DNA of 38,673 nucleotides from positions 1-38,673 of the IMG/VR virus record IMGVR_UViG_3300009702_000049; one strand, given 5' to 3'. Position numbers and translations under genes: made by a program. Each line of letters begins with the position of its first letter. Within the stretch, counting starts at the first letter, position 1. Source of the DNA: a virus. Under the pieces are notes generated by a model. That model was not told the origin of the DNA, ran no database searches, and worked only from the letters and a program-made list of their open reading frames with translations. Of this stretch, positions 1 to 32,551 are shown in pieces.

Positions 1-529
1 CTCAGGAGCACGTAAAAACCTTCTAAATATGAGACAATCCGCAGGGAAGACTTTCGACAAACGATTTAACGAAAGAACCCTCAACGACTACACGCCCGAC
101 TCATTTAGAGTTTGTAACAAATGTGGAGAGTCAAAACCACTGACTGAATTTTCACCTCACAGTAAGAAAAATCCATGGCTGCGGCTACATTGCAAAGCAT
201 GTGCAAGTGCAATGGTTGCCGCAAACGAATATGGTATTTCTTTGCAACAAGTTATAAATTTGCGAAAGCAAAACACTTGTGATTGTTGTGGTTGTAAATT
301 TACTAAAGATAATTGGTCTGATATTCATCATATCGGTTCAGAAGTCAGAGGTTTGATTTGTCACAATTGTAATCGCTTATTAGTCGATGAAAGTGAAGAA
401 CAACTTTCAAGATTATGCGATTGCGAACAATGGATTCTGGATGATGAAGATATAGTCTGTTCTGCATGGAGACATGCAGAGGTTAGCAGAAATGACTAAC
501 CCCTTGCAAAGTGCAAGAGTAACAATCTG
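1..529 (+). ncRNA. Group I intron (td-like, subgroup IA2), 5' end outside window
   Basis: Catalytic-core pieces can be read directly. P5 is CTTTCG 51-56 paired with CGAAAG 70-75, and P4 is AGGG 43-46 paired with CCCT 78-81, with AA (76-77) in the joiner. P7 is GACTA 86-90 paired with TAGTC 453-457. The context CTCAACGACTA ... GAAGATATAGTCT matches the conserved R and S elements of phage introns. P3 is probably ATGAG 29-33 with CTCAT 100-104. Downstream come P9 (461-468/473-480, GAGA tetraloop), a P9.1-like hairpin (481-486/496-501) and a P9.2-like hairpin (503-508/512-517). From memory, the 453-480 segment closely resembles the T4 td intron. The HNH frame fills P8. The 3' splice site is inferred as after G529, so that exon 2 begins QESLAILEE; G519 is the alternative. 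The 5' splice site and guide sequence lie upstream of the window. Confidence 0.88.
29..499 (+). CDS. Intron-encoded HNH homing endonuclease, endonuclease VII-like
   Basis: A 156-residue protein with two zinc-type Cys pairs: CNKCGE (about residues 29-34) with CKAC (about 55-58), then CDCCG with a later CHNC. The His-Asn motif DIHHIGSEVRGLICHNCNRLL-type segment (about residues 97-118) is typical of recombination endonuclease VII / HNH enzymes in phages. It presumably cuts intronless coat alleles so that the intron is copied into them. The only ATG in frame ahead of the domain is at 29. The first roughly 25 residues are therefore translated from the intron core (P3-P7), and the last 15-20 from P7-P9.1. 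The stop at 497-499 lies in P9.1. The frame is the same as the coat exon but separated from it by this stop. A translation start inside the domain cannot be excluded. Confidence 0.85.
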   Translation: MRQSAGKTFDKRFNERTLNDYTPDSFRVCNKCGESKPLTEFSPHSKKNPWLRLHCKACASAMVAANEYGISLQQVINLRKQNTCDCCGCKFTKDNWSDIHHIGSEVRGLICHNCNRLLVDESEEQLSRLCDCEQWILDDEDIVCSAWRHAEVSRND

Positions 530-1888
530 CAAGAATCGCTCGCAATCCTCGAAGAGAATATGGTGATGGCCAACTTGGTGCATCGCGATTTCTCCCCGCT
601 GGTTGCCAGCTATGGTGATGTTGTCAACACTCGTCGGCCGCAAGAGTTTGAAATGCGGCGTAAGGCTCAGAGCGACTCGGTCGAGAACCAAGACGCCGTG
701 AGCACAAATGTGCAGGTTCCTTTGAACCAGCACGTGTACGTCACGTTCACGATCAAGGACGAAGAGTCGTCTTTGAGCTTCAAGGAACTGATTCAGTATT
801 ACATGCAGCCCGCCGCCAAGGAAATGGCGAGTGCTGTCGACAAAATCTTGGTTGGCCAAGTCCACCAGTGGCTGGCGAACAAGGTCGGCAAACTGGCTGG
901 CATGACTTCCGCGAACGCCAAGGAGTACATCCTTGAGGCTCGTGAGAAGCTGAATGTCAACAAAGCATATCCGTACGGGCGTAACTTGGTTATCAGCCCA
1001 TACTCGGAGACGCAGATGTTGAACACGGACATGTTCATCAAAGCCAACGAGCGTGGCGACGATGGAACGGCTCTGGCAGAGGCCCGCTTGGGTCGTGTGC
1101 TGGGCTTCGACACTTACATGGATCAGAACGTCCCATACGTTCCGCTCAGTGGTGCCGACATCAACACGTTGAATCACACTGCTGGTGCTTCGGCTGGCGA
1201 TACAGGCAACAAAGCCTGCACGTCCGCCACGGAAGTTACCAACGGCGAATTTGTGTGGATCACTGGTGACCAGCAAGCGCAGGTCATCAGCGCACACACG
1301 GGCTCTGGTAGCACGACTGGCATCACGCTGGTTGACGCTTATGACAACGCGGTTGCCGCGAACGCTGTGGGTTATGCCTACAACGCCGCTTCAGTTGACC
1401 TCGCTGGTCATACCTCGGCCAACAGCTCGATTACTGCCTATGCGGCTGGCTATGACAAGAAAATCCGAATTGACGGCATGACCGCCAACAAGGTTCTGGT
1501 CGTGGGTCAACTGCTGGCCTTTGCCACTGGCGCGTCTCGCCACACCTACACTGTTGTGCAGGTGGAGAGCGTCAACACGACTACCGTGTACGTCTGGTTG
1601 GATCGACCGCTGACCACAGCGCTTGCCAACAACGACGCCGCATTCCCAGGGCCGCATGGTTCCATGAACTTCGGTTTCCATCGGGATGCTCTTGCGCTCG
1701 TCAACCGTCCGCTGGCCGTTCCGAGCAACGCTCTTGGCGTACAGGCTGCCGTCGGTAGCTACAACGACTTGGCGATGCGTGTCGCGATGCAGTACGACAT
1801 TTCGAGTCAGGGCACGAAGGTGACCCTCGATATGTTGCTGGGTGTTGCGCAGCTCGACGAAAACCTGGGTGTGGTCCTCCAAGGCTGA
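530..1888 (+). CDS. Major capsid protein, P22 coat-like, exon 2 (5' partial)
   Basis: The product builds the icosahedral head shell. The N-terminal stretch (LEENMVMANLVHRDFSP, GDVVNTRRP, then a QDA motif) and the C-terminal MNFGFHRDALALVNRPLAVP are hallmarks of the P22 gp5-like coat family. The middle third (nt about 1160-1600) is Ala/Thr/Gly-rich and may be the inserted surface domain. The first in-frame ATG is at 560, but conserved coat sequence continues in frame upstream (QESLAILEE from 530) until the intron stop at 497, with no start codon or ribosome site. The ATG at 560 is therefore not the real start, and the missing N-terminus should come from an exon to the left of the window. Exon 2 gives about 452 residues, close to full length for the family. 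A strong terminator follows. The boundary of 530 is inferred. Confidence 0.88.
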   Translation, partial: QESLAILEENMVMANLVHRDFSPLVASYGDVVNTRRPQEFEMRRKAQSDSVENQDAVSTNVQVPLNQHVYVTFTIKDEESSLSFKELIQYYMQPAAKEMASAVDKILVGQVHQWLANKVGKLAGMTSANAKEYILEAREKLNVNKAYPYGRNLVISPYSETQMLNTDMFIKANERGDDGTALAEARLGRVLGFDTYMDQNVPYVPLSGADINTLNHTAGASAGDTGNKACTSATEVTNGEFVWITGDQQAQVISAHTGSGSTTGITLVDAYDNAVAANAVGYAYNAASVDLAGHTSANSSITAYAAGYDKKIRIDGMTANKVLVVGQLLAFATGASRHTYTVVQVESVNTTTVYVWLDRPLTTALANNDAAFPGPHGSMNFGFHRDALALVNRPLAVPSNALGVQAAVGSYNDLAMRVAMQYDISSQGTKVTLDMLLGVAQLDENLGVVLQG

Positions 1889-1920
1889 CCCAACGCGGTT
1901 CTAACCGCTTCTTGATAACA

Positions 1921-1957
1921 CCCCGGCAGGCACAACCTGCCTGCCGGGGTTTTCTTT
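1921..1957 (+). terminator. Rho-independent terminator after the coat gene
   Basis: A perfect 12-bp stem (1921-1932 with 1938-1949) around a 5-base loop CAACC is followed by TTTTCTTT. It should stop or reduce coat-gene transcripts before the next gene at 1976. Confidence 0.92.
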
Positions 1958-1975
1958 CTCCCTCTGGAGGTTTGC

Positions 1976-2257
1976 ATGACTACTTATGTCGCTTACGACG
2001 CCATCACCCCTTATGGGTACTCGCAAATTACTAACTTGTCTGCGGTCATTGGCATCGAAGGCGGCAATGGAAGAGTAGCCTTGCTTCAAGCCATCGACCA
2101 AAACATCCGATGGCGCGACGATGGCACCGACCCGACAGCCAGCATTGGCATGCGTCTGCACGCTGGTGAGACGTTCCTGTACAACGGGGACTTGGCAAAA
2201 ATCCGATTCATCGAAGAAACTGCTGGGGCTGAATTAAACATCAGCCGATATCAATGA
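1976..2257 (+). CDS. Small virion-associated protein, function unknown
   Basis: A 93-residue protein preceded by a strong ribosome site (TGGAGG, 5 bases before ATG). Its central part (IRWRDDGTDPTASIGMRLHAG, then FLYNGDLAKIRFI) follows a pattern I recognise from small beta-rich proteins next to phage coat genes: an Arg-Trp-Arg-Asp-Asp-Gly turn, then Gly-Met and an aromatic strand. A role as head decoration or adaptor protein is an inference from position just after the coat gene. No signal peptide or membrane segment is seen. The stop overlaps the next ATG (ATGA). Confidence 0.75.
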   Translation: MTTYVAYDAITPYGYSQITNLSAVIGIEGGNGRVALLQAIDQNIRWRDDGTDPTASIGMRLHAGETFLYNGDLAKIRFIEETAGAELNISRYQ

Positions 2258-2982
2258 GATCACGCGCATTGCCACGTTTCGACCCGCTTGAACCCTATTC
2301 TGGGGGTGCGGGGCTTATTGAGAAGCGAGAAATACTCGTTTCGGCGTTGGCATTGCAGCAAACCCTGGTTCACACAGGGGATTGGCAGCATTCGGCGGAT
2401 AGCTTGCTGCTGCTGGACGGTGAGGCTACCTCTCACGTCAACCACGAGAGCGACTCAGGCGACTCGACGCTTAACCTGTCTGATGACGCCCTATTTAACA
2501 TGGATCGCTTACGCGGCCTCTCAGACACTCTCACGCTGTCTGATTTTGCTCACGTCTGCCTATGCGGATACACCGCCCCAAGTGGTGGAGGTTCTGGGGA
2601 CACTTATCTGGATAGACACACGGTGACGGCCAACGAAACCATTGTTATCGGTCAGCCTGTCTATATTTCCGGCAACAACACAACTAATCTGGCAGATGCA
2701 GACAACATTGCCACATCTCACGTCCTGGGCTTAGCAGAGACAAATGGAACAGCCAACGGCACAATGAATGTGCTCAGTGATGGCAGAATAACCCAATCAG
2801 ATTGGTCTTCAGTAGTTGGCTCAACATCTCTAACTCCAGGGGCTCAATATTATCTTAGCACCTCTGCTGGTCAATTAACCACAACGCCTCTATTTGGCAT
2901 AAGTGATGCTGTTGTAACATGCGGAACTGCCGTTAATACCACTACATTGGATATTGAAATCAACGAGATCGCAGTATTATGA
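2254..2982 (+). CDS. Virion structural protein with C-terminal beta domain
   Basis: A 242-residue protein starting at an ATGA overlap with the previous gene. The N-terminal half has loose repeats of the type STLNLSDDA and DTLTLSDFA, which resemble the LxLTQTV repeats of the protein at 14989. A glycine-rich linker (PSGGGSG, about residue 110) leads to a beta-rich domain: HTVTANETIVIGQPVYI, then VLGLAETNGTANGTMNVLSDGRI, then LTPGAQYYLSTSAGQLTTTP. This domain occurs in many phage head-decoration and fibre proteins. It may be exposed on the virion and work with the fibre gene that overlaps it downstream (ATGA). The exact role is unknown. Confidence 0.72.
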   Translation: MRSRALPRFDPLEPYSGGAGLIEKREILVSALALQQTLVHTGDWQHSADSLLLLDGEATSHVNHESDSGDSTLNLSDDALFNMDRLRGLSDTLTLSDFAHVCLCGYTAPSGGGSGDTYLDRHTVTANETIVIGQPVYISGNNTTNLADADNIATSHVLGLAETNGTANGTMNVLSDGRITQSDWSSVVGSTSLTPGAQYYLSTSAGQLTTTPLFGISDAVVTCGTAVNTTTLDIEINEIAVL

Positions 2983-5306
2983 CAACCTACAAGCCTTTAG
3001 TCTTGATCGCTGGTCTGGATCAACAGCTTTCCAATTCTGATGCGCTAGATGTCTCGACTTTTGATACCGCGACCGTCAATTTCACCGGCAACCTAGACGT
3101 TACTGGCAATGTTACCTGCAACAATCTGACGACAAACACTCCAATTGACCACTCAGCGCTGTCTAACTTATCGGCTGATGACCACACGCAGTATATTCTC
3201 GCTGATGGCACGCGAGACTTCACCGGAACTGTCAATGGCGTCACCCCTACCGCGAACGCACATCTCGCTACCAAGGCCTATGTAGACGCGAACGATAGCG
3301 ACACAACAAATCACTCGCTACTGACCAACCTCTCTGCTGATGACCACACTCAATACATTCTAGCGGATGGAACACGAGCTTTCACTGGAACTGTTAATGG
3401 TGTTACACCAACAGCAAACGCGCACCTAGCCACTAAAGGCTATGTAGACGCAAACGATAGCGACACAACAAATCACTCGCTACTGACCAACCTCTCTGCT
3501 GATGACCACACTCAATACATTCTCGCTGATGGAACACGAGCTTTCACTGGAACTGTTAATGGAGTAACTCCAACAGCAAACGCGCACTTGGCTACCAAGG
3601 CCTATGTAGACGCAAACGATAGCGACACAACAAATCACTCGGCGCTATCTAACCTCTCCGCTGATGACCACACGCAATACATTCTCGCTGATGGAACACG
3701 AGCATTCACCGGGACAGTTAATGGCGTCACCCCGACAGCGAACGCGCACTTGGCTACCAAGGCCTATGTAGACGCGAATGGTACAACAAATCACTCATTA
3801 CTTACCAACCTCTCGGCTGATGACCATCCCCAATATGTTCTAGCTGATGGCACACGCGCCTTCACTGGGACAGTTAATGGCGTAACTCCAACAGCGAACG
3901 CGCACTTGGCTACCAAGGCCTATGTAGACGCAAACGATAGTGACACAACAAATCACTCGCTACTGACCAACCTCTCTGCTGATGACCACACTCAATACAT
4001 TCTCGCTGATGGAACACGAGCTTTCACTGGAACTGTTAATGGTGTTACACCAACAGCGAACGCGCACTTGGCCACCAAAGCCTACGTGGATGCAAACGAT
4101 AGCGACACAACAAATCACTCATTACTTACCAACCTCTCGGCTGATGACCATCCCCAATATGTTCTAGCCGACGGCACACGCGCCTTCACCGGAACTGTTA
4201 ATGGTGTAACCCCAACAATTAACGAGCACCTAGCCACTAAAGGCTACGTGGATGCAAACGATAGCGACACAACAAATCACTCATTACTTACCAACCTCTC
4301 GGCTGATGACCATCCCCAATATGTTCTAGCCGATGGCACACGTGCCTTCACCGGAACTGTTAATGGAGTAACACCGACAATTAACGAGCATCTAGCCACT
4401 AAAGGCTACGTGGATGCAAACGATAGCGACACAACAAATCACTCATTACTTACTAACCTCTCGGCTGACGACCACACTCAATACACGCTGGCCGATGGGT
4501 CACGCGCCTTCTCGACAAATAATGGTGCAATTGGCCTAGTTCTATGGGATACTGGGAACAATTCTCTTGATACCACAAATCGAGGGGGTAGTGTAATAAT
4601 AGGTGGGTACACCAACGCAATAAATGGTAGAAACAGTACCATTATTGCTGGTTACATTAACTCCATCACCTCTAATGTAGATAACTCAGCAATCATCGGC
4701 GGTGGGTCTCACACGATCAACAAAAGTCATTCTGCTATTCTCGGTGGTTGGGACAACAGTATAACCGGAAATTATGCTGGCATCTTATCAGGTCAGGGTA
4801 ATGAAGCCAATGAAGAGTACAGTGTTGCCCATGGTAAATATGCTGTAGCCGATATTTATGGCGCACAAGCCCAGGCCTCGTCAAGAATCGGAGTCTCTGG
4901 GGATGTTCAAACGATGGTTTGTACCCTTGTCCTGAATGATGGTTCAGGTAACTATACAGAGATGTTTCTTGATTCAAATGGTGCTACACATGGGACAAAG
5001 CAGCTTCTTGTGCCTCCTAACACAGCTTGGGCAATAAAAGCCTTATTGTGTGGTCTCGCAACGAACGGATATGCAATGGCCGCATATGAATGGAGAGCAG
5101 GAGTAAAAAGAGATGGAACAGCTACGGCAGCTTTTTCTGGGACTCCAACACGCACGATAATTTCTGAAGATGACATAACCTGGGATACTGATATGACAAT
5201 TGACACGACTACCAATGCTGTACAAATTAAGGTAAAAGGTACAGCAGGCTGGTACATAAATTGGTGCGCCCGTGTTGAAATAACTCAAGTAAAGGTACAA
5301 TCATAA
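2979..5306 (+). CDS. Tail fibre / receptor-binding protein with tandem repeats
   Basis: A 775-residue protein. A short N-terminus (about residues 1-57) leads into eight complete and one partial copies of a 54-residue repeat (NLSADDHTQYILADGTRAF, then GVTPTANAHLATKAYVD), a well-known trimeric phage fibre shaft repeat. From about residue 510 the pattern changes to short GG-containing beta turns (VIIGGYTNAI, IIAGYINSI, IIGGGSHTI, ILGGWDNSI), typical of the YadA-head type of trimeric beta roll. A C-terminal beta domain follows (about 650-775). The protein probably contacts the host surface. It begins at an ATGA overlap with 2254-2982 and shares one base with the next start. The family is clear; the receptor is unknown. 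Confidence 0.87.
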   Translation: MTTYKPLVLIAGLDQQLSNSDALDVSTFDTATVNFTGNLDVTGNVTCNNLTTNTPIDHSALSNLSADDHTQYILADGTRDFTGTVNGVTPTANAHLATKAYVDANDSDTTNHSLLTNLSADDHTQYILADGTRAFTGTVNGVTPTANAHLATKGYVDANDSDTTNHSLLTNLSADDHTQYILADGTRAFTGTVNGVTPTANAHLATKAYVDANDSDTTNHSALSNLSADDHTQYILADGTRAFTGTVNGVTPTANAHLATKAYVDANGTTNHSLLTNLSADDHPQYVLADGTRAFTGTVNGVTPTANAHLATKAYVDANDSDTTNHSLLTNLSADDHTQYILADGTRAFTGTVNGVTPTANAHLATKAYVDANDSDTTNHSLLTNLSADDHPQYVLADGTRAFTGTVNGVTPTINEHLATKGYVDANDSDTTNHSLLTNLSADDHPQYVLADGTRAFTGTVNGVTPTINEHLATKGYVDANDSDTTNHSLLTNLSADDHTQYTLADGSRAFSTNNGAIGLVLWDTGNNSLDTTNRGGSVIIGGYTNAINGRNSTIIAGYINSITSNVDNSAIIGGGSHTINKSHSAILGGWDNSITGNYAGILSGQGNEANEEYSVAHGKYAVADIYGAQAQASSRIGVSGDVQTMVCTLVLNDGSGNYTEMFLDSNGATHGTKQLLVPPNTAWAIKALLCGLATNGYAMAAYEWRAGVKRDGTATAAFSGTPTRTIISEDDITWDTDMTIDTTTNAVQIKVKGTAGWYINWCARVEITQVKVQS
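3150..4511 (+). repeat. 162-bp in-frame tandem repeats in the fibre gene
   Basis: Eight full units and one truncated unit, each encoding 54 residues from HSLLTN or HSALSN to DSDTTN. One unit is shorter because it has NGTTN in place of NDSDTTN. Some units are almost identical at DNA level over 100 bases or more, while others carry TINEH in place of TANAH and PQYV in place of TQYI. This suggests recent unit duplication and gene conversion. Confidence 0.95.
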
Positions 5307-13128: not shown

Positions 13129-13201
13129 GCACCCGTAACTCAATTGGCAGAGTACCTGATTTGTAATCAGGCTGTTGCGGGTTCGACTCCCTCCGGGTGC
13201 T
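13129..13201 (+). tRNA. tRNA-Thr(UGU)
   Basis: A full cloverleaf of 73 bases. The acceptor stem GCACCCG 13129-13135 pairs with CGGGTGC 13194-13200, with discriminator T 13201. The D arm is ACTC...GAGT. The anticodon stem CCTGA 13155-13159 pairs with TCAGG 13167-13171, with loop TTTGTAA and anticodon TGT at 13162-13164, which reads ACA/ACG threonine codons. The T loop TTCGACT is in place, with one C-T mismatch in the T stem. No CCA is encoded. It lies between a terminator and the ribosome site of the next gene, inside the late tail cluster. Confidence 0.93.
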
Positions 13202-21787: not shown

Positions 21788-22824
21788 TTCTTAGGGTCCT
21801 CACTCAGATAGTAGCCATATTCATCCAACCAACCAAAGAAAGTATGATCGGCTTTTTCTGCCTCTTCATGCAGATGATCCAGTGCGGCTTGAATGCACTG
21901 TTCTTTCATGTTTGTGTCATAATTCTTTGACCAACTTTTTCTCACCTTACTCAATTCATCAGCCGCCTTCCTGCAATCCTCTGCCTTTCGCATGCTTTGT
22001 GTCACACGCTCGATTGAACTGATAAAATCGAACGGGTCCACTCCGTGCAGTTTCGCTATCGACAGGAACTTGTCGATCTGCTCCAGGCTGTACTTCTGGT
22101 ACAGATTACCTATGCGATCTTCAAGTTTCTGCATGGAAGCGAGCTTCTCTTTGTCTTTGATTTCGAATCGAACTCCTGGTGTGGGAGGGTTATTGATTCG
22201 TTGCAGATTCTCCAACTTCTTTGCTGCCTGCTCCGCCTTTATGGCGGGCCCACTTTTAATGAGTTCAGGAACCTTTACGGCGGGTGATAGGAGCGGATCA
22301 CATTTCTTCGAGTCATCATAAAACTTCCCCTGCCACTGTTGCATGAACTCATATTCTGAGTAATCGCAAGGTGCCTTGCCACAGCAATCAACGGGGCTGT
22401 CCGCGATGGTATACTGGTATGGATTCTCGTCCTTGAATAGCTCTTGCAAATGGGCGATCTTGCCCTGTAAACCATCAATGTGGTCACTGACGGGTGCACG
22501 CGGCGGGCGATCATCATTCAATTTTCCCAGCAGCTTAGCGTCCAAGATAATGGCGCAGCACGCCATCACCGAGGCAAGATGGCTGACATGGGTCACAGCA
22601 TCCTCATCTTCGCCGTTTAACCACTTTGACATATGGCGTCGCATGGCCGAATAATAGATGGATGCCCGTACGCCTTTCTCTCGCCAGTTGTAGCGTCCAT
22701 ATTTCAACGCTCCCTCCAGAAAAGACATGGCCATTTCGGCCACCGCGCTCTCTGGGACCAAGTCCATAGCTAGTTTGGTCGAACCAACCGCATCTTTGGG
22801 GTTGGTCGGTTTGCTGTCAGTCAT
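21784..22824 (-). CDS. dATP/dGTP diphosphohydrolase N-terminal domain (DUF5664-like) protein
   Basis: 346 residues. The first 125 match the all-alpha nucleotide pyrophosphohydrolase-like phage family: NPKDAVGSTKLAMDLVPESA, FLEGALKYGRYNWREKGVRA, SIYYSAMRRHMSKWLNGED, VTHVSHLASVMACCAIILDA and KLNDDRPP. The LEGALKYG/NWR/GEDxDxxTxxxHL acidic-histidine signature is clear. Activity on dATP or dGTP is family knowledge, not shown here. The remaining 220 residues are helical and charged without a recognised family and may be a coupling or regulatory part. It probably adjusts the nucleotide pool for replication. It overlaps the primase stop by one base (TAATG) and the exonuclease start (ATGA). Confidence 0.82.
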   Translation of the reverse strand: MTDSKPTNPKDAVGSTKLAMDLVPESAVAEMAMSFLEGALKYGRYNWREKGVRASIYYSAMRRHMSKWLNGEDEDAVTHVSHLASVMACCAIILDAKLLGKLNDDRPPRAPVSDHIDGLQGKIAHLQELFKDENPYQYTIADSPVDCCGKAPCDYSEYEFMQQWQGKFYDDSKKCDPLLSPAVKVPELIKSGPAIKAEQAAKKLENLQRINNPPTPGVRFEIKDKEKLASMQKLEDRIGNLYQKYSLEQIDKFLSIAKLHGVDPFDFISSIERVTQSMRKAEDCRKAADELSKVRKSWSKNYDTNMKEQCIQAALDHLHEEAEKADHTFFGWLDEYGYYLSEDPKK

Positions 22825-25800
22825 TACACTTCATCCTCTCGTTTCAGACGACTACCGTCTTTTGTAAAGGGCGTCATCGGTTCACATTCTTGGAAACTGA
22901 TGTTGCCTACCACTTGTACATTACCTCGGCCGCGACCTACTGGAAATCTCTCAGACAGAATGCGAACAATCTCTCTATCGTTTTTCCACTCTGTCTCTTG
23001 ATACTCTTCCAGTGTCTTGAAGAACGCTTCCTTGAATTCCTTCAATGCAATCGACCTGCCAGGAATAGCGTAGCAGTTATTGTCAATGAAGTCATCCAAT
23101 GGGTTGTTGTTCACAGCAGCAGCGTCATACTTGCCCTGAGTCTCGATGATCGGCAGCATGATACGGCTGGTCGCTTCAGGGATTTCAAAATCCAACAAGG
23201 TCCTCATGAAGTGTGGCGCCTCTCGCTTCAGAAGCTCGCGGAACTTGTCACGCGGGATTTCCTCTTCGAGACTTGGTACATTCATAGCAGTTATTCTGGT
23301 ATCCCCAGGGAACACAGGCAGGCTGGCCCGCGAATTAGCCATTTGCACCAGATGCAGCGTACTGCGAACTTCTTCGACCTGTTTGTACTTCGCATGGACT
23401 GAGAGAGTCTCACCTGTTACCCATTCCTTCAATTTGTTGTAAGCCTCAATTCCACCTGTCTTGCTGATGTCCACCTCGTCAACCACGCCGAGAATGGCAT
23501 TCGTAAGTTCGCCATTATATCCTGATTTGCTTGTAAGCGCTCTGTCAGCTTTGCAAACACCTTTGGTGACAAGAAGGGCGAGAGCCTCATGGAAAGATGA
23601 CTTCCCGCTGTTCTGCGGTCCATAGAAAAACAGGTAAGGCAGCTTGCCGTAAGGGTTCTGGAACATGCAGGCCACCCACGCTGTCAGGTAATCGCCTCCA
23701 TTCTCAATCCCCCATTCTTTGCACCATGGCAAATTTGGGATTAGTTGATCCAGCTCGATGCCACAATGCCGCATCAGCCTGTTCCAAGTTGGGTGTACTG
23801 CATGCTCCCCTTCCTGTAACTCGATTGGAGTGTACAAGAACTGAGTTGCATTACGGTTCCACTCCCGTCCTCCGGGATACTCTGATTCAAAAGGTCTATT
23901 CACTAGCTTCCAACATTTGAAAATGGCTTGGCCAAAGATCACATCATTCTTAGTATGGCCTTCTGATACCAAGAATAATTTCACGTTCTCGCGTGGGTGT
24001 GTAATCCAATCCCCCTCTTCATCTCGTAGCACCCACTCTTCGAATCTGCTGCCCACTTTCAATGCTCGGAACTGGTTATCCAATTCACTCCACATCTCAG
24101 CATCTTCGATTTCCTTATCTGTTGTCTTGACAGCATCGTCAACCACCCGCTCCCAGCCCTTGGAAGTTTTGGCGTAACGAGGGAAATCAACGGGCTTATC
24201 CCCTCTTGTCTTGCCAATGACCAAGATGATCTTGCCGTCGTCCCGTGGCCTAATGACGAACTGTCTTCCATCACTATCTGATACCCCACGAGGAATCTCG
24301 ATATTGGAAGACAGCAATTTAAGGGCATTTGCAATTTCCTCGACCAGCGAGAACATGTAACCGCCTTTGCCGTCCGGGGCTTCAAAGCCTCCGCACGAGC
24401 AGCAGATTTGTCGCAGGGTGGCAGGATAATTGAATGTGGTGTGGGTCCACTTTCCTTGCTTACCCCAGAGAGGGTGTTCAGTACACCCCTCACCGAAACG
24501 ATACACGTCCCACCCGCCGCCGAGCTTTGGTCGCATAAAGCAGTTGCCGATAAGGATGAAGTCTTCCAGCACGAAGCAATGGTGCTTTGGAACTGTGCAG
24601 CAGAATACTTCCTCGCGCCCGGCAGGTTCTACGCTGACTACTCTCCAGTAATGGTGCTGCCGGTTCTCCGTGCTGCCCCATCTCTCACGGTGATGGGTGA
24701 GCAGGAAGAACTCTTCCGACAAATCAGAGGCTTTCAAGATTGTCGTGTACATCATGCTATCTTTGTAGCCCGAATGCACCCTACTTGTGATCTTTGAAGT
24801 CTCGATTCCGAGAATGTGACACACTTGGCGAACATGCTCAATACTATTTTTGTCGGCGGAGCGAATTATGCACGAACCACTACCAGACACGCAGCCATCA
24901 GCAGCGAAGTAACCCGCCAGCCATCCATACAAGTAAGCCTTATCGTAGTGCAAAGGCACCAAAGACTTGAAGTGGTGAGGGAGGTTCCATACTTCCACCC
25001 CACCAACAGATCGTGTGATCGGTCGTTGAGGATGCCCAGCAAAATACTTTAACAGTTCGGCATCCTTCTTGCCAAACAAGCTCAGCGATGATGTTCTCCG
25101 ACCGCCTCCATTGGTGCCGTCGCCCCACACTAGACCATGTTGAATTCCGACCACACTAGGTGTGTGATTGCATTGCGGCTTGGTTTGCACGAGGATACGC
25201 CCCTCGGTCAAATCCTTGGTGACAACTTCCTCTCGGTCGCCAAAGTTCACCTTGGTCTTTCGCTTGCCATTACTTCGATACTTTGTCACATACCAGCGGT
25301 GATCGCCGGTGGCCCGGATGACTTTACGTTGGTTGCGGTTCTCAAGTGTCACGGCAAACACTTCCTGCTCCCCGTAGGACTTGAATGGTACGGTCATCCA
25401 CTTACCACGGTAAGTGATGATTTCCGCATTCTTACCTGCCAACTCGCCAATGGGCTTAACCCCCTCACGAGTGATGACCTTGGTGTCTGCGCATAGACAG
25501 TTCGCCTTACCCGGATCAGAGTCAAGCGAGTTTGTGTCAAACAAACCCCGCATCGGGGTCCCCCGTTCTTTCCAATCCTCGTAGACTGCTTTCAGCCCGG
25601 CCGTGTGCCCCTGCCACAGATAGTGGTCATGCACCCACAAGCTAGTGTGGCCTGTATGCTCAAGGTCTTCGAGGATTTTCAGGTGGGTCTCGTCTAATGG
25701 AACCCGGGCGTGAGCTTGAGTCATTTCGTCAAGCTCGTCGCCCTCGGTTGGTAGTCCATCGGCGGTCCATCCTTGGACTCGCACTTTGGTTCTGCTGCCG

Positions 25801-26528
25801 GTGACGACTTCGAGATTGTCCCGCCAGTTAGGTGGAACGTGAGCAGCAGTTAGAATTTGTGTCGCTGGTTTTATTAACTCGTAACCATGATTCTCTTTTG
25901 TCGCACTCTCGTGGTGAATCCACATGACCGATCCACAGACATCTACACTGGCCTCAACGTCGAGTCCCGTGTGCTGCGCGATCAGTGGGATATATGAGCG
26001 CGCCAAGGCGGCGTGTTCAGTGTGGTTCATTGTGACCGGGTATGGGTCCTTGAACCAGATGTAGATGTGTCGACCCATTCCCTTGGTGCTTCGAATAACT
26101 TCGAGCCAAGGAACGTCGATTTTGTCTAGCTTCGCAATCTCAGAATCGGATACGCCTACCCCTTCGGCGTGCCCGGCAATGGAATCGAAGTCAAAGCCAA
26201 GCCCAATGGACCGCTTGTTCTTCCAATCCCACCACGTTGTGCCGATGCACTTCATGCGATCGCGTATAATATATTGAATAGGTGGGTCGCTGTAGTTCGG
26301 ATTTCCGGCCGCGTCGTAAGGCCACCGTTGTGGGCCAAACTTCTCGCCCCCTTCCTCATACATATTTGAATCTGGAACCTTCACACCCATCTTGTGACAC
26401 ATTATCTGTGTTTCTAAGCGCGACGGGTCCTCGCCCCACTTGCCGATCAATTCTGGGTTATTGTGCTTCTGTGACAGCACGTTGTCGTAGTAGGCTTTAT
26501 ACGCCTGGGTCACTGGCGAGTTTTTCAT
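22824..26528 (-). CDS. Primase-helicase (AEP primase + SF3/D5-like helicase) containing an intein
   Basis: 1234 residues from the ATG at 26528-26526. This start has a proper GGAG upstream; the longer start at 26561 directly abuts the TATATA box and is unlikely. The N-terminal primase domain has GFDFDS (metal-binding Asp about 113 and 115) and GMGRHIYIWF (His about 154). An intein follows (residues 344-662), then NCFMRPKLGGGWDVYRFGEG, a linker typical of phage PrimPol-helicases. The helicase has Walker A GPQNSGKSSF (about 970-979), Walker B GVVDEVD (about 1014-1020) and an SF3-like sensor region around MANSRASLPVFPGDTRI. The fusion would both prime and unwind at the fork. Removing the intein gives about 915 residues. 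It is the first gene of its operon. Confidence 0.9.
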   Translation of the reverse strand: MKNSPVTQAYKAYYDNVLSQKHNNPELIGKWGEDPSRLETQIMCHKMGVKVPDSNMYEEGGEKFGPQRWPYDAAGNPNYSDPPIQYIIRDRMKCIGTTWWDWKNKRSIGLGFDFDSIAGHAEGVGVSDSEIAKLDKIDVPWLEVIRSTKGMGRHIYIWFKDPYPVTMNHTEHAALARSYIPLIAQHTGLDVEASVDVCGSVMWIHHESATKENHGYELIKPATQILTAAHVPPNWRDNLEVVTGSRTKVRVQGWTADGLPTEGDELDEMTQAHARVPLDETHLKILEDLEHTGHTSLWVHDHYLWQGHTAGLKAVYEDWKERGTPMRGLFDTNSLDSDPGKANCLCADTKVITREGVKPIGELAGKNAEIITYRGKWMTVPFKSYGEQEVFAVTLENRNQRKVIRATGDHRWYVTKYRSNGKRKTKVNFGDREEVVTKDLTEGRILVQTKPQCNHTPSVVGIQHGLVWGDGTNGGGRRTSSLSLFGKKDAELLKYFAGHPQRPITRSVGGVEVWNLPHHFKSLVPLHYDKAYLYGWLAGYFAADGCVSGSGSCIIRSADKNSIEHVRQVCHILGIETSKITSRVHSGYKDSMMYTTILKASDLSEEFFLLTHHRERWGSTENRQHHYWRVVSVEPAGREEVFCCTVPKHHCFVLEDFILIGNCFMRPKLGGGWDVYRFGEGCTEHPLWGKQGKWTHTTFNYPATLRQICCSCGGFEAPDGKGGYMFSLVEEIANALKLLSSNIEIPRGVSDSDGRQFVIRPRDDGKIILVIGKTRGDKPVDFPRYAKTSKGWERVVDDAVKTTDKEIEDAEMWSELDNQFRALKVGSRFEEWVLRDEEGDWITHPRENVKLFLVSEGHTKNDVIFGQAIFKCWKLVNRPFESEYPGGREWNRNATQFLYTPIELQEGEHAVHPTWNRLMRHCGIELDQLIPNLPWCKEWGIENGGDYLTAWVACMFQNPYGKLPYLFFYGPQNSGKSSFHEALALLVTKGVCKADRALTSKSGYNGELTNAILGVVDEVDISKTGGIEAYNKLKEWVTGETLSVHAKYKQVEEVRSTLHLVQMANSRASLPVFPGDTRITAMNVPSLEEEIPRDKFRELLKREAPHFMRTLLDFEIPEATSRIMLPIIETQGKYDAAAVNNNPLDDFIDNNCYAIPGRSIALKEFKEAFFKTLEEYQETEWKNDREIVRILSERFPVGRGRGNVQVVGNISFQECEPMTPFTKDGSRLKREDEV
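24543..25499 (-). mobile_element. Intein 1 (LAGLIDADG type) in the primase-helicase
   Basis: A 319-residue element from Cys (codon 25497-25499) to Asn (codon 24543-24545), followed by Cys at +1. Block A is CLCADTKVITREG, block B is RATGDHRW with Thr and His, and blocks F/G are KHHCFVLEDFILIGN. Two dodecapeptide motifs lie in the middle: VGIQHGLVWGDG and LYGWLAGYFAADG, the pair needed for a LAGLIDADG homing endonuclease. The residue before the terminal Asn is Gly where most inteins have His, a variation known in some inteins and possibly slowing C-terminal cleavage. The exteins join as PGKAN-CFMRPK, a conserved site between primase and helicase domains. Confidence 0.93.
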
Positions 26529-26637
26529 AGTATCTCCATACTTTCTCGAATCGTCTATCATTATATAGGCCAGAACTCGTGATTTCGTTAGCGCAAAATC
26601 TCAAAAAGGTGTCTGAAATAGGTCACCCCAAAGGTGG

Positions 26638-29809: not shown

Positions 29810-32551
29810 ATGACCATACGTTGCCTGTACGGGGTGACAACGGGATCATGTACGAAAGAATTGAAGATGACAATTGAGAATATTCGCCTGATTAAAGAGA
29901 CAAAGAAGGGCACCCGAGTGTGGGTACCTTGCTCCATTCAACGTGCCAATGGCCGCATCAACTTTCTTGGGCACGGTGCCACCGAGGGACGGTTTCGACA
30001 AACTCCGTTCGAGTTGAAAGACGAGATAAAGGCGATGAAGGGTAGTCGTTGGCATGGACATGTCGATGGCGACAACCGCAAGATGTGGTCTGTTGAAGAC
30101 TGCACACGGAATAATTTCCAGCTTGCGTACATGACGGGCGGCAACCCTTATGCGAACTGGGACCAACCCCTTCGCAACTGGGGCTACAGCAGGTCGCTCT
30201 ACGAGCACCAGAAACTGATGTCCGATCACTGCCTCACCTATCATTACAAGATTCTGGCCGCCGAAATGGGATGTATCAGTGGGAATGCCATTGTGAATTG
30301 CAACCGTGCTGGTCGCGGGTTCAAGATTACACTATCAGAACTGTATGACAAGTGGTCAAATAAGAAAAACCACGTCGGTAGGAAGGGACAAAAATCTTGG
30401 GATTCTAGTATTCCGACGTTTGTTCGTTCGATGAAAGGTAGCTTTCTTGGCCTAAATCGACTAATCAATGTTCTGGATAAGGGTGTCAAGAAGGTCGTTA
30501 AAATAACTCTGCAATCTGGTAAGACTTTGGTATGCACACCTGACCATGAAATTTATATTAGTGAATCTGTGTGCATTCCAGCAGATAGGCTTACTCCTGG
30601 TGACACTGTATTGACAAATGGTACTTGGGTTGACAAGGATGGGTATGTCCGCGTAGGGGGTTTGAAAGGAAAACACCCAAGATGGACAACGGGAGGCGTC
30701 TATGAGCATATTCTTGTGATGGAAGAAAGTTTAGGTAGACACTTGACTATTGCTGAAGTGGTACACCATAAGAATGGTGTCAGGCATGACAACCGTATAG
30801 AGAATTTGGAGCTTCACACCACATCTAGCCACGCAAAGAAGCATGGAAAAGCAGGGGGATTTGCAAAATTAGACGGCGGTCGCGGTCGCGTGTTCTTCAT
30901 CCCTAAGCCTGACACTGTTGTTAGTGTCGAAACAGCCGGAGAAGAGAGAGTATTTGATTTGGTTATGGATAACCCATATCGAAACTTTGTGGCGGATGGT
31001 TTTGTGGTTCACAATTGTGGAAAAACGCTCTCTGCCATTGAAGTGATGGAACAGTCTGGCAAGCAGGATTGGTGGTGGGTGGCTCCGAAGTCAGCTATTG
31101 CCGCCGTTGAGCGGGAGTTCGAGAAGTGGGGCTTGCGCGTCCAACCTCGCATTATGACCTACGAGCGTCTCCGCATCGACATCGAGCGGTGGGAAGACGG
31201 GATGCCCGCTCCGCAAGGCGTCATCTTCGATGAATCCTCACGACTCAAGTCCGGCCTCGCCAAACGGACCAAAGCAGCGATGCACCTCGCCGACTCGATT
31301 CGCAAAGAGCACGGCTGGGACGGTTATGTCATACTGATGTCCGGCACGCCTTCGCCGAAGTCACCCGTTGATTGGTGGTCGCAATCGGAAGTCTGTTACC
31401 CTGGTTTCCTGAAGGAAGGGTCACCGAAAGCATTCGAGTGGAGGTTGGCCATCTTCGAACAACAGATGACAGAGCAAGGCAAGTTCTGGAAACGTAAGAC
31501 ATGGCGCGATGACGAACTGAAGTGCGACAAGTGCGGCGAGTATGCTGAGCACGAGAATCATGAAATGGATGACATCTTCGGAATGGGTAAAGACTCCCAT
31601 TCGTTCGTGCCTTCCAAGAATGAAGTCTCTTATCTGCACGAACGTCTCGATGGGCTGGTGCTACCACTCAAGAAGAAAGACTGCCTCGATATTCCTGAGA
31701 AGATTTATCGAGAAGTCACGCTCGAACCTTCCAGCACGCTCAAGCGCGTCGCCAAGGCCCTGGCGTCGTCGGCCGCCACCGTCATCCAAGGCATCACTTG
31801 GCTGCGTGAACTGAGTGATGGCTTCCAGTATCGCCAGAAGCAAGTTGGCATGAAGCAGTGCGAAGTTTGCCGAGGCGAAGGTCAATACGAGCAATGGTTC
31901 AATGTTGACGGTGAGCTGGGCACTGATTTGTCAGATGTCAACGATCTGACTGAATCAGGCTACACGAAACAAATGGCTGTGTGCCCACATTGTGAAGGCA
32001 CTGGTGAAGTGCCAAACATGGTACGCGAATCCAAGGAAGTGAAGTGTCCAAAGGAAGCGGCAGTCCGCGACCTGCTCGAAGAGAATGAAGACCAGGGTCG
32101 TTTGGTTCTCTTCGCTGGTTTCCAAGGCTCGATAGACAAGATCGTCAAGATTTGTCACAAACAGTGCTGGGACGTCGTGAAGGTAGACGGTCGCGGGTGG
32201 AAGGTGCTACGCCATAATGGTGAATCGGTTGGTAAAGACGTCAAACCCCTAAATTACTGGGCTGACCTGAAGAACAACGAGAGAGTTGCATTCGTTGCGC
32301 ATCCAGAGTCAGGAGGTATGGGACTTACTCTTACCGAAGCACGCATGGCAGTGTTTTACAGCAACGACTTCAAACCAGAGTCTCGAATGCAAGCGGAAGA
32401 TCGAATCCACCGTCCTGGAATTGACGAAAACAAAGGGGCCACAATCGTTGATCTATTCCATCTAGGCACCGACAGAAAGGTGCTGTCCGTGCTACGTGAT
32501 AACCGTCGATTAGAGAACATGACGCTTGGAGAACTACAGGAATCATTATGA
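29810..32551 (+). CDS. SNF2-type SF2 helicase with intein in the P-loop
   Basis: 913 residues from ATG 29810, which has GAGGG five bases ahead. ATG 29867 (TIENIRLIKETKKG) is a likely alternative start where homology would begin. Motif I is KILAAEMG-[intein]-CGKTLSAIE. Motif II is DESS (474-477), motif III is SGTP (511-514) and motif VI is QAEDRIHRPG (861-870). Two Cys clusters lie in the middle: CDKCGEY, and a DnaJ-like zinc pair CEVCRGEG ... CPHCEGTGE. Walker A exists only after intein removal. SNF2-like phage helicases act in replication or recombination. The stop overlaps the next start by 4 bases (ATGA). Without the intein it is 665 residues. Confidence 0.92.
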   Translation: MTIRCLYGVTTGSCTKELKMTIENIRLIKETKKGTRVWVPCSIQRANGRINFLGHGATEGRFRQTPFELKDEIKAMKGSRWHGHVDGDNRKMWSVEDCTRNNFQLAYMTGGNPYANWDQPLRNWGYSRSLYEHQKLMSDHCLTYHYKILAAEMGCISGNAIVNCNRAGRGFKITLSELYDKWSNKKNHVGRKGQKSWDSSIPTFVRSMKGSFLGLNRLINVLDKGVKKVVKITLQSGKTLVCTPDHEIYISESVCIPADRLTPGDTVLTNGTWVDKDGYVRVGGLKGKHPRWTTGGVYEHILVMEESLGRHLTIAEVVHHKNGVRHDNRIENLELHTTSSHAKKHGKAGGFAKLDGGRGRVFFIPKPDTVVSVETAGEERVFDLVMDNPYRNFVADGFVVHNCGKTLSAIEVMEQSGKQDWWWVAPKSAIAAVEREFEKWGLRVQPRIMTYERLRIDIERWEDGMPAPQGVIFDESSRLKSGLAKRTKAAMHLADSIRKEHGWDGYVILMSGTPSPKSPVDWWSQSEVCYPGFLKEGSPKAFEWRLAIFEQQMTEQGKFWKRKTWRDDELKCDKCGEYAEHENHEMDDIFGMGKDSHSFVPSKNEVSYLHERLDGLVLPLKKKDCLDIPEKIYREVTLEPSSTLKRVAKALASSAATVIQGITWLRELSDGFQYRQKQVGMKQCEVCRGEGQYEQWFNVDGELGTDLSDVNDLTESGYTKQMAVCPHCEGTGEVPNMVRESKEVKCPKEAAVRDLLEENEDQGRLVLFAGFQGSIDKIVKICHKQCWDVVKVDGRGWKVLRHNGESVGKDVKPLNYWADLKNNERVAFVAHPESGGMGLTLTEARMAVFYSNDFKPESRMQAEDRIHRPGIDENKGATIVDLFHLGTDRKVLSVLRDNRRLENMTLGELQESL
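30272..31015 (+). mobile_element. Intein 2 (HNH type) in the helicase P-loop
   Basis: A 248-residue element from Cys155 (codon 30272-30274) to Asn402 (codon 31013-31015), followed by Cys at +1. Block A is CISGNAIVNCNRAG, block B is CTPDHEIYI with Thr and His, and block G is VADGFVVHN with His-Asn. The insert carries an HNH_3-type nuclease: DKDGYVRVGGLKGKHPRW, VYEHILVMEESLGRHLTIAE, VHHKNGVRHDNRIENLEL. Insertion in the ATP-binding loop (MG-CGKT) is a favoured site for inteins because it is invariant. Splicing restores the P-loop, so helicase activity depends on it. Confidence 0.95.

Follow-up and report, generated by a model that had tools for sequence, protein, structure and literature searches.

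A td-like group I intron carrying a frame of the endonuclease VII/HNH type in the P22-type major coat gene of a metagenomic virus

Introduction

Few phage genes are expressed as highly as the major coat gene, and an intron in it therefore implies very efficient splicing. Introns in capsid genes are known but rare. Mycobacteriophage LittleE carries one in its major capsid gene, probably of group I according to its authors, and the splicing of this intron was proven by RT-PCR and N-terminal sequencing (PMC3706429). The same paper cites a capsid intron of lactococcal phage Tuc2009 (PMC3706429). The word capsid is absent from a survey of the Bastillevirinae (PMC11878797), and the literature searched here, which was limited in extent, yielded no description of a P22-type coat gene with an intron.

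The stretch of DNA analyzed here, hereafter the window, is an entire IMG/VR fragment of 38,673 bases devoid of terminal repeats, the first base of which is the edge of the record and lies inside an intron. An earlier note on this DNA had claimed that a td-like group I intron interrupts a P22-like coat gene, the codons of which continue in frame upstream of the ATG at 560 with no start codon. The intron is real and deserves to be annotated, with LittleE as its precedent.

Interruption of the coat gene

Exon 2 of the P22-type major coat gene occupies positions 530–1888 on the plus strand (452 codons and a stop) and matches PF11651 with 109 bits (cut-off 24) and phrog_283, the major head protein, with an E-value of 4e-60. 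The coat codons upstream of ATG 560 are present as claimed, encoding QESLAILEEN at 530–559, and the exon begins with CAAGA. A relative of this coat protein is encoded by 194 stretches in IMG/VR, 80 of which were kept. At nearly all of the relative loci inspected, the coat runs unbroken through ...NDNDALIPELWA-QESLAILEENMVMANL... (with variants), whereas the coat of the window, set against these intronless relatives, breaks exactly after the alanine codon and before the next codon. The insertion falls in the conserved N-terminal segment ...LIPELWA|QESLAILEENM... of P22-type coat proteins.

The earlier note had proposed an alignment with coat genes of related phages and had allowed that upstream sequence might supply a complete coat start without a gap. 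With the upstream DNA of the window off the record, this was examined in relatives. The intronless ones are uninterrupted, and the 55.5-kb contig L009 is interrupted at the codon boundary of the window by a complete group I intron, placed exactly between WA and QES. This intron measures 934 nt and scores 84.9 bits with Rfam. The first exon of L009 encodes MNQYPLCYANDNDALIPEIWA and ends with GGGCT, the intron starts with TGATTTTGGG and ends with AAACGG, and the second exon starts with CAAGAGTCT; joined together, the exons encode a normal P22-like coat protein of 462 aa. Between L009 and the window, the introns are 79% identical over 514 nt and the coat exons are 75% identical. A 23-nt probe from the P8/P7 segment matched the contig of L009 solely. 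In L098, a P22-like coat gene at 1713–4131 contains one group I intron of 681 nt and another of 328 nt, with a micro-exon of 36 nt between them, and its product after joining has 470 aa.

Among isolated phages, no coat intron of such a kind was found, the matches being td-like P7/P9 segments and coat proteins below 60% identity only. The bacterial genomes searched for the coat gave five relatives only, all at most 51% identical, and therefore no host is named.

Fold of the intron

The 3' part of the td-like intron covers positions 1–529 on the plus strand, and all elements of the fold described below lie on the same strand. The 5' splice site, P1, P2, and the 5' strands of P3 and P4 are all upstream of the record start; the record contains neither the 5' half of this intron nor exon 1, and P1 and the complete P3 and P4 were therefore assessed in relatives. 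The covariance-model search that the earlier note had suggested gave a match of Rfam Intron_gpI (RF00028) to positions 1–479, covering model positions 70–253 of 253 with 48.6 bits and flagged as 5'-truncated, the E-value being 6.1e-11 for a search of 1.5 kb and 1.6e-9 for the whole window. This score, reached without the first 69 model positions, is 1.4 bits short of the gathering score of 50 bits, and a tRNA is the sole listing for the window in an Rfam scan at the gathering threshold. Complete relatives score 51.8–86.8 bits with Intron_gpI, with full-length matches in the introns of eight relatives. No further group I introns were found when the whole window was searched with Intron_gpI.

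The partners of P4, P5, and P7 had been placed at 43–90 in the earlier note, and strands of P4, P6, P7, and P3 were recovered at or near there. The 3' strand of P4 (UCCGCA) lies at 38–43, by alignment with complete introns in which P4 is 100% paired at this place, followed by the P6 region at 44–80, where the Rfam alignment and the complete introns pair 44–45 with 79–80. The 5' strand of P7 (GACUA, 86–90) is invariant in relatives and pairs with 453–457 in the Rfam alignment, and the 3' strand of P3 (GCCCGA) lies at 94–99 with its partner off the record. The two strands of P8, at 101–109 and 436–444, can pair with each other according to the Rfam alignment and direct reading of the sequence. 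The P7' and P9 elements of the earlier note stand as well: the conserved GAAGATATAGTCTG at 446–459 holds the 3' strand of P7, as placed by the Rfam alignment and the relatives, and the next element is P9 (462–479), a hairpin of 7 perfect base pairs closed by a GAGA tetraloop. Two more hairpins succeed it, namely P9.1 at 481–501 with the conserved loop CAGAAATG(A) and P9.2 at 503–517. Judged from intronless relatives and complete introns, the 3' splice site is at 529/530, G529 being the last intron base and C530 the first exon base. The window itself displays P7, P8, P9, P9.1, and P9.2, and only one strand each of P3 and P4; likewise, the window shows the intron-terminal G, whereas the exon-1 U and its U.G pair were read from L009 and L098. 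In these two relatives, from which P1 and P10 were read with the rows of L093 and L095 left out, the intron start can pair with the end of exon 1 over 4–5 bp with a U.G at the splice site (P1), and the intron bases directly beside P1 can pair over 5 bp with the CAAGA that starts exon 2 (P10).

Covariation was evaluated in an alignment of 11 related introns, including that of the window, from P7 through the 3' splice site. P9 is 100% paired in the 11 introns with covariation in six of its seven pairs, P9.1 is 90.8% paired with covariation in five of six, and P9.2 is 83.6% paired with covariation in all five. For the three hairpins together, standard pairs occur in 92.4% of cells, and 16 of 18 pairs changed on both sides at least once. 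The observed covariation score was reached by none of 500 shuffles, and pairing fell to 25–47% when partner columns were slid by 1–3. P3, P4, and P6 are 100% paired in nine complete introns, with five of six P3 pairs changed on both sides; this support for P3 and P4 comes from the relatives, the window contributing one strand of each. The resemblance to the td intron of phage T4 was also borne out, as the isolated phages gave their best DNA matches in the P7/P9 segments of td-like introns, one of which lies within an annotated thymidylate synthase gene that an I-TevI homologue splits.

The endonuclease frame inside the intron

A frame absent from the earlier note runs from 2 to 499 on the plus strand, comprising 165 open codons. 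It is open at its 5' end and may start at ATG 29 or upstream of the record. The encoded protein is of the endonuclease VII/HNH type and matches phrog_2633, endonuclease VII, with an E-value of 2e-13, and PHROG 2340 too. Against PF02945 it reaches 20.4 bits, under the curated cut-off of 23.6, whereas both domains of the corresponding L009 frame are above the cut-off. Cys4, HH, and CxxCN, which supply the zinc-binding cysteines and the HH...N active-site motif of the family, are invariant in seven homologues (C38, C41, C64, C67, C93, C95, C96, H109, H110, C120, C123, and N124). The predicted structure (mean pLDDT 74) resembles Hpy99I, a beta-beta-alpha-Me enzyme, weakly (E 0.015), a sequence search of the PDB gave a zinc-finger match only, and endonuclease searches in IMG/VR returned only distant endonuclease VII genes and L009.

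The globular part of the protein corresponds to about 110–430 and sits in loop P8, and at both of its ends the frame runs into the ribozyme core. Before the globular part the frame spans P5, P4, P6, P7, P3, and P8, and after it P8, P7, P9, and most of P9.1. This overlap is an extreme case of core creep, a term taken from PMC3073962.

In L009, one intron frame of 277 codons (3149–3979), opening at an ATG with a good ribosome-binding site, contains two HNH/endonuclease VII-type domains located in loops P5 and P8. Over 110 residues, these two domains share 31% identity, and they are fused in frame through the ribozyme core. A second intron with tandem HNH domains was not found, a 16-nt probe from the tail of the first domain giving the contig of L009 and three unrelated hits. 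The window starts at the P5 loop with its frame open to base 1, and it is possible, though doubtful, that its intron resembles that of L009 and would encode a single protein with two HNH domains (P5 and P8) and a linker read through the core, the same bases serving as catalytic RNA and linker and translation and splicing being mutually exclusive. At two discriminating positions, bases 1–12 (CTCAGGAGCACG) match an empty P5 loop and not the tail of an extra domain, which points faintly to an intron without a first HNH domain in P5, as we tend to think. An initial reading, in which the window would open with the end of such a first domain, was dropped because the ORF-less intron of L050 (5026–5242) has the same ...CACGTAAAAA... 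there.

Frame 2–499 could also be a chance or remnant frame with no active homing endonuclease, in an intron that would be functionally ORF-less and moved only by recombination. Over the ribozyme core, the comparison of the window with L009 displays no codon-position bias and no coding constraint (dN 0.41, dS 0.48), and the reading frame over the core varies among relatives, as a remnant would have it. In the P8-loop part, however, the changes between the two fall mainly in third codon positions (33/16/55 at positions 1/2/3), as in a constrained gene, and a frame of equal length arose in 1 of 5000 first-order simulations. With the endonuclease VII match and the invariant Cys4, HH, and CxxCN residues also against it, a remnant is improbable. 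Synonymous divergence between the window and L009 is saturated, hence no dN/dS ratio is given for the endonuclease.

Distribution and mobility

The coat tree comprises 83 rows, 10 of them intron-bearing. The presence of the intron on this tree calls for six changes (gain or loss), each of them required by branches with good support, and the nearest rows to the window are intronless. The intron is mobile or often lost. The six changes would fit repeated gain by homing, gain and loss being indistinguishable on the tree, and the patchy distribution is consistent with an endonuclease of putative activity that cuts the intronless allele.

Three insertion sites were recognized. Site 1, GAGCT|NTGGGC, is 7 nt upstream of that of the window and is used in L050, L060, L093–L095, L097, L099, and L100; site 2, GGGCT|CAA, is shared by the window, L009, and L098; site 3, ATGGTT|ATG, was seen in L098. 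All three fall in one short conserved coat stretch and are occupied separately on the coat tree. The window intron is one of a small family of mobile introns, which would have hit this one stretch of P22-like coat genes repeatedly.

Introns were also observed in a further gene, which lies downstream of the coat gene. Those of L041 (6669–7577) and L081 (4212–5120) are short, td-like, and ORF-less, and each directly follows a GIY-YIG frame of the I-TevI-like type in a layout that recalls collaborative homing. The L050 intron at 5026–5242 is in apparently the same gene.

Proposed splicing and homing

The best explanation overall, which we hold with high confidence, is a mobile td-like group I intron between the alanine and glutamine codons of the coat gene, removed by its ribozyme and spread by its endonuclease. 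The coat pre-mRNA would fold the ribozyme and be cut after the U of GCU, at the U.G pair of P1. The exons would then be joined at G529/C530, leading to an uninterrupted coat mRNA with the predicted junction ...GGGCT joined to CAAGAATCG. The P8-loop endonuclease would most likely cut intronless coat alleles of co-infecting relatives near the site, and the intron would be copied in. This explanation is built on the intron anatomy, the insertion site and restored frame of a relative, the constraint on the endonuclease, and the patchy distribution, as read from the sequences. From these we infer splicing in the cell, together with the cleavage activity and its target, and a dependence of head formation on splicing would follow from the anatomy.

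A decayed group I relic that no longer splices, with the coat broken or served by the internal start ATG 560, is far less probable. The 5' half is off the record and a disabling change may lie there; yet every 3' helix of the window is intact and covaries with the relatives, the endonuclease frame is open and constrained, and coat exon 2 is intact over its 452 codons. A start at ATG 560 would lose about 30 conserved N-terminal residues that are kept in every relative read. An assembly chimera, in which the intron and coat of different genomes were misjoined in a metagenomic contig, is hardly credible: the record is a metagenomic fragment ending inside the intron, but L009 and L098 independently have the same intron-coat junction, and at least three further distinct lineages have related ones located 7 nt upstream.

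Other elements of the genome

The helicase gene at 29810–32551 on the plus strand contains an intein with an HNH_3 endonuclease at residues about 155–403, identified by Intein_splicing PF14890 (47 bits), intein_Nterm, and intein_Cterm. An apparent second intein begins at residue about 355 of the primase gene, at 22824–26561 on the minus strand (intein_Nterm 25.4 bits, cut-off 24.5). Besides the group I intron, the genome probably contains two inteins. A tRNA gene (13129–13201, plus strand, 61.7 bits) lies among the tail genes, immediately after the tape-measure gene.

Comparison with known systems

Coat genes of contigs such as this one will be annotated without their N-terminus. The three coat sites provide a natural set for studying how homing endonucleases pick conserved, essential sites, and the same set bears on the balance of splicing against translation through the ribozyme core. 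It also bears on whether a capsid intron gives an advantage over intronless competitors, as has been shown for phage PhiPA3, where an intron endonuclease interferes with a co-infecting phage (PMC11620839).

Compared with td-type introns, the P7 and P9 segments of T4 td-type introns are nearly identical to those of the window (37–40 nt at 92–95%), and the td-likeness of the window intron, a putative member of the IA2 subgroup, rests on this segment similarity. In td-type introns and in L009 alike, the 5' splice site is immediately followed by a stop codon. In contrast, td-type introns reside in thymidylate synthase genes and encode a GIY-YIG enzyme (I-TevI), in loop P6 in T4, whereas here an HNH/endonuclease VII gene occupies P8, with an extra P5 domain in L009.

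The locus resembles the introns of SPO1, in which HNH genes are likewise placed in P8 and the frame overlaps the core (PMC3073962). In Bastillevirinae, genes with two or three introns and a small exon between introns occur, as in L098, and PHROG 2340, which the window frame matches too, is among their intron-encoded families (PMC11878797). The targets of the SPO1-like and Bastillevirinae introns are genes for DNA polymerase, terminase, ribonucleotide reductase, and thymidylate synthase (PMC3073962, PMC11878797).

The capsid intron of LittleE shares with the present one the major capsid gene as its location, an endonuclease gene inside, the intron-final G, and the exon-1-final U, here seen in L009 and L098. 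The two differ in that the LittleE endonuclease is LAGLIDADG-like and encoded on the opposite strand, whereas here an endonuclease VII/HNH-type enzyme is encoded on the same strand, in P8, within a P22-type coat gene.
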